Both the position numbers and the translations under genes were made by a program. Positions 33,401 through 39,400 of a DNA stretch of 64,000 nucleotides are shown here, one piece after another. Numbering within the stretch: the stretch's first letter is position 1; each line of letters starts with the position of its first letter. Under the pieces are notes generated by a model that ran no database searches, was not told the DNA's origin, and saw only the letters and a program-made list of their open reading frames with translations. The DNA is from Strigamia acuminata (Eukaryota > Arthropoda > Chilopoda > Geophilomorpha > Linotaeniidae), in the NCBI GenBank assembly GCA_949358305.1, contig OX442315.1:9450427-9514426 (forward strand). Direction: 5' to 3'.

Positions 33401-36400
33401 TTTGTGTTCCCGAATGGAATGCGTGGAATTTTCCGGTCAATTGACCCGAGCTTCACCTGCAACTTGTGAGGACACGCGAACGGCCTGCCGCCTGGCGATA
33501 AATTATGTAAACACAACACACCCGCGTAAAACCCCCATCCTTGCTCGTAATTTTTAATTATGAAGCAAAATTATAATGATACTAAGTAATTGGAGATTTG
33601 CGGTTTCACGAAGTTTTACATAAATTCTCGCCGCGGCCGAGCGCTATTTATATGCCGAGCGCCATTCGTCAACGATAACTACTTCCAGATCCGGACCATT
33701 AATAAATCACATCCCATGATGCAACGGAGCGAAACTAACGACTCGATTCGATCTTTGCATTCGGCCGAAGTAAAGACGCTGCAAAAGACACTCGTCGCGG
33801 CTCAACGCAAACGACAAGACACCGCTTGGATGTGCTTGCTTTAATGCCACATGCAACAAAATGGCTCCCGCTCCAATTATGAGTAACGGAAGCCCATTTG
33901 GCACTGGTGTTAATGAACAGGGTCAGATTCACACGTGTGAAGACACATGGCCAACAGCTTACTTAATATTTCCTAACGGCGACTTCTCAAAGTTCTCAAT
34001 ACACCGGAATGACCCATCTCAATGGGTGCATTCAAAGTCATAATCTGAATTATCAACAATTCATGCAAATAATTGGCTGATGTGGCTGAAATGTTTTACC
34101 AGCCACAGGAAATGATGTAATTTACATCACTGAAATGATAATTTAATTCCAATAAGTGGCTTATTGACAAGTCACGTGCGTCAAGTTGCGTTTTGATTTT
34201 GATGTAGTAAATAAAATAAATTTTTATAACAAATGTGTGTAAAATTAGAGTTTAAGTAGCCATCATTCTATTTGTGAGGTCAGTGTAGCGAAAATAATTG
34301 GCCAATGTCAATAAAAAATCTTTAAAGCATAACCTCATTAGCACTGAAGAATGGAGAACATATGCTGCACATTTTTATTATTTATACAGCTCCCTCTTTT
34401 AACTAAATTATAATTTTTCCCCTCTGCATCTTTCAAAATCAATCAAAAATAACACGGATTTGTCCTATTTTAAAACCAACTAATTTTTTTTTTTGGATAT
34501 TTGTATATTTTTTTTTATTATAAAAAAAAAATAAAACACACACCATTTAATTATTTTCTCACTAAACAGACAGCAGATGGCAAGCATCAACTATCATTAA
34601 AGACAAACTCACATTCTTCCAGGAAGTGTTTCATGCAAATCTCCGGAAATGACATCCTCAAAACTACCAGGAAATAATTCCAGATTAATTTCACTCATTG
34701 CCTAATCATCTAAGCTGACATCTTCCACCTGATTGCTTGCATTTTGCGACATATCATGCAACGACAAACGCTTGATCCCTAACCGCATCGATTCGCAAAA
34801 TTTTCAGCATTTTGCGAAACTCGACGTCGATCTCGCAAAACGCAGAAACATTACCGAACCAATTGCAGCAACATGAAACCGCAATTAGCTCGTATTAAAT
34901 CAGTTAAGAGGTTAAATCTTCATGACAACAATTCTGTTTAGGTTTAATACTAAGTAAGCCTACTCCAACAAGATTTATTTCCTACTCCATGGTTCCTTAG
35001 ATTGTCAAAATCCTGCTCGTAAAACTGCGACAATTCATCGCTAACACGTTCAATAACCGAAAGACATCCTCAGCGCGCAGACAAAACGACAAAAACCGCC
35101 CAAGCGGCAATTAACAAAAAGTTAATTTCTACCGTTTAGCGTAACCTTAGCATGACTAATTTATCCAGCTTGCGTGCCCAGATACTAAAATAGGATCCCA
35201 TTGTAAGTATATTATTATTTATTTTTTTCTCTTCGCTTCTTTTCAAACTTCCCTTTAAACCAATCCTTAATTCATTACAACACAAACTAATTCTTTTCCT
35301 CCATACCATTAATCACAATGTAGAGAACACTGCATTAGACAAAATTCCCATCATGCTTCATTACCCAACAACCGACCAATTAGAGCAAAACATTACAAGT
35401 CAGCCAATGACATCACGAATGAAAACAAGATGTGAATACTAAACAAGTGGGAAAGAGAAAGCATTAAAGAAGAGAAGGAAAAAAAAACAGAAAGAGGAGG
35501 GGTTGCTGGTGGAATGGCAGCTGGCACACCTGAAAATTGCGTGAGACTGCGTGTGAACAGGGCAGTGCATTGTAGCACAATCAAGGTCACGTGAAAATTG
35601 CTGACAAATTACTAAGACAAAAGGATAATTATGAGACAGTCTCAACTGTTGGACATGACAACTTTGCCAGAACTAAACTCGAGAAACAAATGGTTTTCTA
35701 ACGGCTAGTTAACCACACAGCGCGTGATGCCAACGCCGCCTGGTGACAAAATTTTAATTTTTCAAACGTCGATAATTAGATTATAAATCACATACTTCAC
35801 GAATTATTTTCTGCATGTAAACACAACAATTTGATTTTTTCACCACTCGGTGCGTGTAAACGTAGAATTAGAAGAAAGCGCCGCACGTGTCGGAAAGTGA
35901 AAGGGCAACGATACCGGGTTTTATTTAATTTCCCTTTTATGTAGCAACACGTGTACGTTTAAAAGACATCTAGAAAACATTTTACGATGCTCTAACATTA
36001 ACATAAACCTGACTTATGAGCGATACAATAAACACTCTCTCGCGGCACCAAGCAGACTTAGTAAGGTGTAACTTATTGGTGAAAACATAAAAACAAAAAA
36101 ATTTAAAAAAAATTTAAAAAAAAATTAATAATAATAATAATAATAAAAAAAATGAAAAAAATTTGTTGATATTATTTTTGTTATTTCTCTCTTACCTTCC
36201 ACCAATGACGTCACTTGAGTGACGCGCACAGCCTTACGCCGTCCAGTGGGCAAGAAGAGCCCTACAGAGCGCAGCTGCTCTCTCAGCAGCGTTCCCCCTC
36301 TCTTCGACTTGCTCCTGATGATCCAATCAGATTCGCAGACAAAGAGAAAAATGGAAAAAGAAAGAAAAAAAAAGGAGCCACATCAGTCATTGACGTGTGC

Positions 36401-39400
36401 TCCGCTACGGCTTACCTTCGACCAGTGACGTGAGCAAAGTTACATTGGCAGCTTTGCGTCGCCCTGCTGGTAAATTCAAGCCAATTTGGTCAAGTTTTTC
36501 CCTCAGCGAACGTCCGCCGTTTTTGGACTTAGCCCTACAAAAAAAGGGAAATTCTTGGTGATCAGTCGGCCATCTTTGAAAGCAATCCAGGTTCTTGTGT
36601 TCATTTTTTTCCTCCGCTGATCAAGGCCAACATCAATCAGCAAACAAAAAGCAAGAAAACACTGAAATGGAAGCTGTTCGGATTAGTCGCCTGGTGGAAG
36701 CGTCTGTTCTTCTTAAACCTGGTCAAGAAATTGAGATTAGTCTGGGTTCTGGGGGAAATAGTGTCTTGGCGAACGTGAAAAAGCCATCGAAGAATCCCAA
36801 TAGTGTCCGAACACCTTGGAAATTCAAGCGGCCGACTTTCCCCGTTCGTTCCAAAAAGTAATTTAGGACAAGCCGCGATTTGTGGGATGACTTTCTTAAG
36901 AACCCAACCTTGCATTTGCACCGAGAACCGAGAAAACTCAGTTGGTTGAAGATATTCTTGCCGTAAATACACTAGGTTCGCACTTGTGTTCTCACTAGAC
37001 ACAACGCAAGAAAACTGACGCAACGCAAGCTGCTTGCATCCAAAAATTCTTGACGTTGACGCCAATTCCTGCTTCAACTCCGCAAAGCATTATTACTAAC
37101 AATGATAGTGAACAGAAAAAGGCTTAGTTTAGGTCTAAAGTTGAAGTTAGCGACGCAACACAGGGAAAGGTCTTGGGGCCAACCAATCACGATCGACTCC
37201 AACTCTCGTCGATTCACGTCTGGTTGGCGAGACTTTGCCACGTGCAAACAGGCCGTCAATTTCGGATTCCGGAACTAGTTCTAGAACTAGATCCAATTCC
37301 AGGTTTCATTGAAACCATCTGATTGACCAGACGCAACATCAATTGTTTCAGCTCTGTTCACACGTGCCCTACAGTGTGAACAGACTCTGCATTGCGTTCG
37401 ACTAATTTTTCCTTGCGTTGCGTTGTGTCGCCCCTATAGTGCGAACACAAGTGTGAACCTAGCTTAACTCACTCCCTCTTTTGAAGATTGAATGCACCAG
37501 TAAGTCACCATCCAAGTGCTAACCAGACCCAATGCTGCTTAACTTCTGTGTTCCAATGAAAAGATGCACGCTTACCCGCACGGGTAAATCCAAAATTTAT
37601 AAAATTAGAATGAAAAATCGTTCAACGATTCCTCATTTCTTAATAGGTCTTAAAATATAAGTTAAACTTAAAAGAAAAAAATCTCATTGGGATGGGGCCT
37701 TGCTGGGGTACAGTACTAAGTGATAAATACCATTCATCAGTAGGAACTACTGAAGGAGAGCATGCATTGCAGATATCAATTAATTTTTTCCCCGGTCACT
37801 AATAAATTATCTAAATATTAAATTATACTCTTTCTACTATGTTTAAGAAGCACCTGTTCTGATTAAATGTTAACTGCAATAAAAAAAAGAAAATAATCAC
37901 AAAAGTTGTCATTTTTCAATTCCTAATGCTTTTTTGATTACCGCTATTAAATTACACCTTTTGCTTATGATTAATTTCCACAAATCAAAATTTCCCACCT
38001 CTATCTCTGATGGAGGGTCAGTGAGTAAGTTCACTTAACATTTTTATATTAAAATTTAAAGGACTTTAAAAAAATTTAATGATCTGAATGACCTGTTTTA
38101 TGATTGATTGTGCATCATTTTTAATTAATATAAAATATAAATATAAATGTATATTTTTATACATTGGAAAATGTGATTATTTGATTTTCAAGTATGTTTA
38201 AAGGGAATTGAAATATTGGGAGATAAGGAGACCAAGAGTGGGGCAAAAAAAAAAAACCTTATCTTTAAGTCCAATGATTGGTAGAAAAGATTCAATGATG
38301 AATTGTCAAACTGCATGACAAGAACTAAAATTCCTTTTGAGATGAAAAAAAAAATTCCCCAATAAAAATATTTAAAATTTTAAAATTAAATTTTTTTAAA
38401 AAAAAAAAAAAAATATTTAAACCAAAATAAAAATAAAAATAACTTTTCATTAACTTTTCTCATTTAAAAATATTTAAAATTTTTCAATTAAAATTTTTTT
38501 TAAAAAAAAAAAATATTTAAAATAAAATAAAAAGAAAAATGGCTTTTCATTAACTTTTCTCATATAAAAATATTAACTTTTTTTTATTCCATTTTGTTTA
38601 TGGTAGTACCCAATTTCAAAACTACTTCTTTCCCAATCTCCTTTTAAACACCTGACAATTTGCTGAATTTATATTTAAAAAAAAAAAAAAAAAAAAAAAC
38701 CTAGACTTCCATGTTGTAAAATTTTTATGACCTCCACCAATAGTAAAAGCAATGATGGCATCCAAAAAGAAAAAGTAAAAAAAAAAAATTCTACAAAATA
38801 CCTCATACTTTTGATTTATCCAAAATTATTATATAATTTTTTTTATTACACAAGGTTCAATGACCCCCCCCATTAAGTGTAAAAATTTTATATGGTATAA
38901 AACACAGTCTAGTGTCAAGTTATGTTATTTATGATGAAATTTTAAGTATAGAGGAAAGAAATATTGACTTTTTTCTTATTTGTTCTCATTTTTACATTGC
39001 ATTGTTACTTTGTTCATGCTTTTTCCTCTTTAAAAGTCATCTAACACCCCCTAATGTTGACTTGTAGCATCTGCAGTGCGTGAAATTGTACTTTATCTTC
39101 CTATAATAAGCCTGTCATTAAGCCTAAACCTAGTGTTGTTGTATTTTCAGGGTTTGTTTCTCACCTGGTGGAGACAACCCTAATTACAAAGCAGCAAAAG
39201 GTGAATTAGTTGTGTCTATTTTCTTTAAAAAATAAAAATATAAAACACAAAACAAAAAAAAATCCTTTCTCCTTTCCAATTTAAAATGGAAGAAAAAAAG
39301 CCCAAACTACTTGAAATTATTGAGAATGAGTTGTGTGGAAAATTGATCAAATTTAAAGACACACAAAAACAAAAAATTAAAAAATTCCCAAAAAAAAAAT

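Follow-up and report, generated by a model that had tools for sequence, protein, structure and literature searches.

Tandem copies of exon 5 and a possible second DNA-binding region in the AP-2 gene of the centipede Strigamia acuminata

Can a single AP-2 transcription factor gene supply two versions of its own DNA-binding region? The question is raised by a stretch of 64,000 nucleotides (nt) from the centipede Strigamia acuminata (assembly GCA_949358305.1, contig OX442315.1, positions 9,450,427 to 9,514,426 of the forward strand), hereafter called the window, in whose coordinates features are given. Its minus strand carries an AP-2 gene with exon 4, two successive copies of exon 5 (5a and 5b), exon 6 and the last exon, and a preliminary description of the window had proposed that the two copies are alternatives. 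We consider it probable (about 0.72) that 5a and 5b arose by tandem duplication and are used in a mutually exclusive way, so that either of two AP-2 DNA-binding regions can be joined to a single dimerisation region.

All the exons of the gene discussed here lie on the minus strand. The canonical exon 5a (36416-36534), in which 38 of 39 residues equal human TFAP2A, and the variant exon 5b (36196-36314) are both 119 nt long and are separated by an intron of 101 nt (36315-36415, GTAAGC...TCAG). Their phase is identical, GT donors and AG acceptors are intact in both, and neither contains an in-frame stop. Each copy begins with the third base of a codon split from the preceding exon and ends with the first base of a codon that the next exon completes. 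Upstream, exon 4 (42257-42458, 202 nt; tblastn and Pfam matches) encodes the first part of the DNA-binding region and ends in ...GGVLRR with its final codon split AG/G; its acceptor is TTCCAG/GCA and its donor AAG/GTAAGA, at 42257. Downstream lie exon 6 (27085-27226, 142 nt, acceptor at 27226), which is common to both forms and by homology starts the dimerisation region, and the last exon to the stop TAA (24176-24467, 292 nt), which by homology encodes the remainder of the helix-span-helix region. A PY-type activation exon stretch, ADFQPPYFPPPY, was recognised by motif on the minus strand upstream of the window; judged by this motif, the gene would also possess the N-terminal PY-type activation exon of the AP-2 family.

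When spliced in silico, 4-5a-6-7 and 4-5b-6-7 both keep an open frame that ends at one common stop. In contrast, 4-5a-5b-6 reaches a TGA after ten codons, and when both exon 5 copies are skipped (4-6) a TGA appears at the exon 4/6 junction. Because both copies or neither lead to an in-frame stop, a full-length AP-2 needs exactly one of the two, and the frame alone would ensure that the full protein comes solely from transcripts with one exon 5 copy. The pair combines the sequence features by which tandem mutually exclusive exons are recognised, namely matching length and homology, a common phase with compatible splice sites and an open frame, and the lack of a product from joint inclusion or skipping. 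The coordinates, lengths, phase and splice sites given in the preliminary description all proved correct, and the TGA that it had expected within about ten codons of a joint splice lies where it was predicted; the stop that follows when both copies are skipped had gone unmentioned there. Its proposal of tandem alternatives agrees with what we found: two coding exons, of which a full-length product takes only one at a time.

The two copies differ greatly in how far they depart from the human proteins. The comparison drew on human AP-2 alpha and beta as represented by four PDB entries. Exon 5a departs from human TFAP2A at a single residue of the 39, and human alpha and beta differ from each other at two of the 39 exon 5 sites. 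Between 5a and 5b, 25 of 39 residues are identical and 14 are changed (A1S, N5R, R8T, S9L, K13Q, D15R, Q16S, I17V, N20F, A23T, A29V, N30R, L33Q and L34V); 5b alters 11 of the 36 sites invariant across human alpha, human beta and 5a. It retains GRRKA, LRE, GLxLP and TSLVE. Arg 8 and Lys 13 are lost and Arg is gained at 5, 15 and 30, the net charge being +7 in 5b and +5 in 5a. The likeness of the copies exceeds chance, because a whole-genome search with the 5a-bearing AP-2 protein matched 5b at E = 1.4e-7 and because 5b by itself passes the cut-off of the Pfam AP-2 profile PF03299 (36.1 versus 23.4 bits). The complete isoforms score 272.3 bits with 5a and 259.3 bits with 5b against the same cut-off of 23.4. 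The preliminary description, which had called 5a essentially the canonical animal sequence, was right in counting 25 retained residues (GRRKA and TSLVE included) and in naming the changes N5R, R8T, D15R, N20F and N30R; its statement that 5b is more basic also holds, although the excess is modest.

The divergence between the copies bears on whether 5b is maintained by selection. The 5a and 5b sequences show synonymous saturation: 17 of the 25 shared residues are encoded by different codons, and the differences (52 of 117 exon bases) number 14, 10 and 28 at the first, second and third codon positions, respectively. In a comparison of 5a with 5b by the Nei-Gojobori method the proportion of synonymous differences (pS) was 0.91 and the nonsynonymous divergence (dN) 0.34, which supports purifying selection. 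A neutral copy simulated to 28 third-position differences shared a mean of 4.2 residues with its source (maximum 14, n = 4000), and none of the 4000 runs reached 25 of 39, while 3606 acquired a stop. When 5a was also allowed to drift synonymously, the mean rose to 7.3 shared residues (maximum 20, n = 2000); again none of the runs reached 25 of 39, and 1748 carried stops. Exon 5b looks selected, with purifying selection acting on it, rather than dead. Because 5a is nearly the human sequence, it was most likely 5b that acquired the 14 changes.

The pair appears to belong to the only AP-2 gene of this genome. The whole assembly (237.5 Mb, 157 contigs) was searched with the AP-2 protein at a limit of E = 1 and with PF03299 at a limit of E = 10. 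These searches, which score the best candidates only, each returned five places, all of them exons of this one gene and including the two exon 5 copies. Neither the window nor the roughly 30 kb above it yielded a third copy of exon 5. A search of the protein set for AP-2 relatives gave one candidate and no scored match, and a search of the viral contigs gave none.

How might the choice between 5a and 5b be enforced beyond the reading frame? U2/U12 incompatibility is ruled out, since all four AP-2 donors examined begin GTAAG. Competing RNA pairing of the docking/selector kind was likewise rejected: pairing of the intermediate intron with 600 nt upstream and downstream was equalled in 159 and 54 of 200 shuffles, respectively, and that of the upstream with the downstream intron in 68 of 100, in a test that covered 600 nt of each long intron and used shuffles preserving single-base composition only. 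Twelve pairs of inverted repeats, many of them A/T-rich, lie within 35700-37100, and no RNA families were found in the window. For a region of 551 nt the predicted fold is more stable than those of its shuffled versions (z -3.9, 0 of 100). Upstream of exon 5a a further hairpin was noticed at 36606-36645 on the minus strand (GCTGATTGA...TTGATCAGC), and 6 of 200 shuffles were as stable.

The 101-nt intron itself offers a different possibility. Its only yUnAy sites are A33 and A89; the latter lies 12 nt from the acceptor and is probably too close to it, whereas A33 (window position 36383), which is separated from the 5a donor by 32 nt and from the acceptor by 68 nt, is a candidate for the branch point. 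A33 is followed by a pyrimidine tract (36341-36373, minus strand, intron nt 43-75) in which 32 of 33 bases are pyrimidines, and the AG-free zone of the intron spans 84 nt. The tract proximal to the 5b acceptor is the poorest of the five AP-2 acceptors, with a pyrimidine fraction of 0.47 versus 0.71-0.82 in the others. In three AP-2 introns, 25 of 795 AGs follow a comparable AG-free zone and two of those 25 also hold such a tract. A tentative 12-bp hairpin (36374-36403, minus strand, intron nt 13-42) would cover A33; it reaches -17.1 kcal/mol with a z of -5.9 for 30 hand-picked nucleotides, but for the whole intron the z is -1.55, with 11 of 200 shuffles as good.

A branch point less than 50 nt from the upstream donor has been given as the threshold for steric exclusion (PMC5740500). 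For the usual intron dimensions of this genome we turned to CCT-type genes, inferring introns in eight gene stretches from 44 of 51 PF00118 matches (the other seven lay outside these stretches); 31 of 36 adjacent pairs yielded an intron and five yielded none, and since the script favours lengths that fit the profile the figures are estimates. Twenty of the 31 inferred introns measured 50-71 nt. In 14 of these 20 a branch-point candidate was present, and the one nearest the acceptor lay 16-47 nt from the donor, in four of the 14 at 32 nt or less. AG-free zones of at least 84 nt occurred in 5 of the 11 longer introns, and 8 of the 31, like the 5b intron, had no yURAy site at 14-45 nt. Because introns of 50-71 nt are common here, the argument for a steric branch-point block is weakened; such a block appears possible but weak, and a pyrimidine-tract binder together with decay of the wrong products would be an equally good guess.

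Taken as a mechanism, the exclusive pair would stem from duplication of the exon that encodes the latter half of the AP-2 basic region, corresponding to human TFAP2A residues 256-294 (numbered from patient variants fitted to the domain stretch ECL...LRRA). Exon 5a would have kept the ancestral sequence and 5b, evolving under purifying selection, would have changed at 14 of its 39 sites; a full-length transcript would take exactly one of them. With its better acceptor, 5a is the probable default; 5b, which has a long pyrimidine tract at a distance from its acceptor but a poor one next to it, is probably the copy whose use is regulated. Both isoforms are presumably expressed, and because they would have the activation and dimerisation exons in common, 5a/5a, 5a/5b and 5b/5b dimers would all be possible. 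AP-2 factors characteristically bind GCCN3GGC as dimers. Sequence-specific binding has been assigned to the basic region together with the helix-span-helix, and dimerisation to the latter (PMC4866721). Several TFAP2A variants of patients map to this neighbourhood (E242K, L244P, R254Q and A256V, PMC10627626; R255W, PMC2866573). A256, recorded as A256V in two patients with branchio-oculo-facial syndrome (PMC10627626), is the first residue of exon 5 and is Ser in 5b. Most likely 5b would alter DNA affinity or site choice. More tentatively, we suggest that splicing might take the place of the gene duplication of vertebrates in an arthropod lineage that has one AP-2 gene, and might go further, with half of the DNA-contacting basic region swapped; a different 5b motif could then direct the factor to other targets according to tissue or stage, and asymmetric sites could be read by 5a/5b heterodimers.

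Altered affinity or site choice seems the likeliest effect of 5b, and its main rival is that both isoforms are made while 5b serves as a weak-binding or dominant-negative dimer partner, or alters a cofactor contact, without acquiring a different site. The common dimerisation exons are consistent with this, as are the changes at 11 of 36 invariant sites with the loss of Arg 8 and Lys 13; however, the GRRKA and LRE cores are kept, Arg is gained at three positions and the net charge goes up, and we regard this rival as possible without favouring it. A poison exon, mostly spliced together with 5a into a frameshifted and decayed mRNA that tunes the AP-2 level, would exploit the TGA reached after ten codons, and with 101 nt the intron has sufficient length for splicing in a genome where most of the inferred CCT-type introns are shorter still (20 of 31 at 50-71 nt). 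Such an exon needs no protein constraint, yet 5b has kept 25 of 39 residues and an open frame while its synonymous sites became saturated, which makes this explanation unlikely.

That 5b is a dead or dying duplicate is more improbable again: in its favour is that the case is known from a single species, but no neutral run among the 4000 or the 2000 retained as much identity, and splice sites and frame are intact. Least credible of all, to the point of being almost negligible, is an assembly artefact or an unmerged haplotype, in favour of which we found no point. Not only do 52 of 117 exon bases differ, but the 339-nt stretch of both exons and their intron, used as a genome query, matched one place at 100%. 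Moreover, homology between the flanking introns is absent on the upstream side, where 159 of 500 shuffles did as well, and on the downstream side there is a weak similarity (8 of 500) that perhaps reflects T-rich composition.

Several considerations weigh against the reading of 5a and 5b as an exclusive, functionally distinct pair. The selection result rests on synonymous saturation, because when only 20, 14 or 10 third positions are counted, 50, 699 and 1562 of 2000 neutral runs, respectively, reach the observed identity; the simulations also assume simple mutation and that all 28 third-position differences arose after the duplication. The constraint on 5b is deduced solely from its divergence from 5a in one genome. 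As to a mechanism of exclusivity beyond the frame, the pairing tests gave nothing stronger than shuffles, and a steric block appears possible but weak, since A33 at 32 nt need not block splicing. Finally, because 5b retains GRRKA, LRE, GLxLP and TSLVE, DNA binding might change little.

The exon 5 region is nearly frozen between centipede and human, and single changes of the basic region are found in human patients with birth defects. A natural second version with 14 changes, selected beside the canonical one, would be a ready-made experiment on which AP-2 residues are free to change and on the effects of such changes. The pair would, in addition, illustrate how AP-2 proteins can be diversified through splicing instead of through extra genes.

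Some observations on the surroundings were made along the way. The window is rich in minisatellite-like tandem arrays from 1914 to 63991 (37 rows at a score of at least 150, some overlapping). One of them, at 29023-29359 (period 30, 11.2 copies, 98% matches), is open on both strands, and a piece of its unit recurs in an open frame at 31961-32206. The genome contains 54 matches to the cuticle domain PF00379, which we take to be restricted to arthropods; these matches and the reading of the mitochondrial contig with code 5 both point to an arthropod. In the mitochondrial contig (C157, read with code 5), where only cox1 was matched by search, the open frames indicate a rearranged gene order, with cox1-cox2-cox3-nad6-nad2 in a row and atp6 apart, and a strong strand bias, with nad1, nad4 and nad5 opposite to cox1; a tRNA scan of this contig with the bacterial code found none. 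A COX1-like stretch on a long contig (C8, 11426218-11426388), covering 58 query residues with one TGA and one TAG, is perhaps a nuclear copy of mitochondrial DNA.

In the alpha-tropomyosin type of exclusion the branch point lies close to the upstream donor. The 5a/5b intron resembles it in its AG-free zone, its long pyrimidine tract and a candidate branch point 32 nt from the 5a donor; it differs in its setting, a genome where many introns are short and where a distance of 32 nt need not prevent splicing. Exons with distant branch points, some of which exclude the upstream exon, have been described (PMC1431707).

A functional parallel is TCF3 (E2A), where the alternative exons 18A and 18B, giving E12 and E47, swap part of the DNA-binding region in a transcription factor that acts as a dimer, and E47 is cited as binding DNA with the greater affinity (PMC12585103). 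TCF3 has, however, an unrelated basic helix-loop-helix fold, and its isoforms were shown experimentally, whereas the AP-2 pair is known from sequence alone. The vertebrate TFAP2 genes belong to the same family as the centipede gene, whose 5a differs from human TFAP2A at a single site, but they number five, and alpha and beta differ at two of 39 sites. Vertebrate TFAP2 genes have alternative first exons. Reports exist of TFAP2A isoforms that differ in activity (PMC3219183) and of two splice variants of AP-2beta (PMC9461128). The terms "TFAP2" and "mutually exclusive exons" occur in unrelated passages of PMC12098113 and PMC7139363, which were set aside. No report of an exclusive exon 5 pair in AP-2 was found among the papers listed by the literature searches, whose scope left most subscription papers and genome annotation outside, and public gene sets may well contain such isoforms as annotated entries. 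The preliminary description had asked whether the arrangement was described elsewhere; for AP-2 the papers listed gave no precedent, but the mechanism itself is known in other genes.

The class of tandem duplicated mutually exclusive exons has been described in detail and is both of ancient origin and convergent among animals (PMC9741552); it is defined by similar length, homology, the same phase and compatible splice sites (PMC3228551) and in arthropods includes those of Dscam and Mhc (PMC9741552, PMC3228551). AP-2 is unnamed in the main text of these two papers, as is TFAP2 in the main text of a human survey (PMC5740500). In length, homology, phase and splice-site compatibility the AP-2 exons 5a and 5b are like the members of this class, and the pair is probably a case of a known kind of exon in an unexpected and highly conserved gene.

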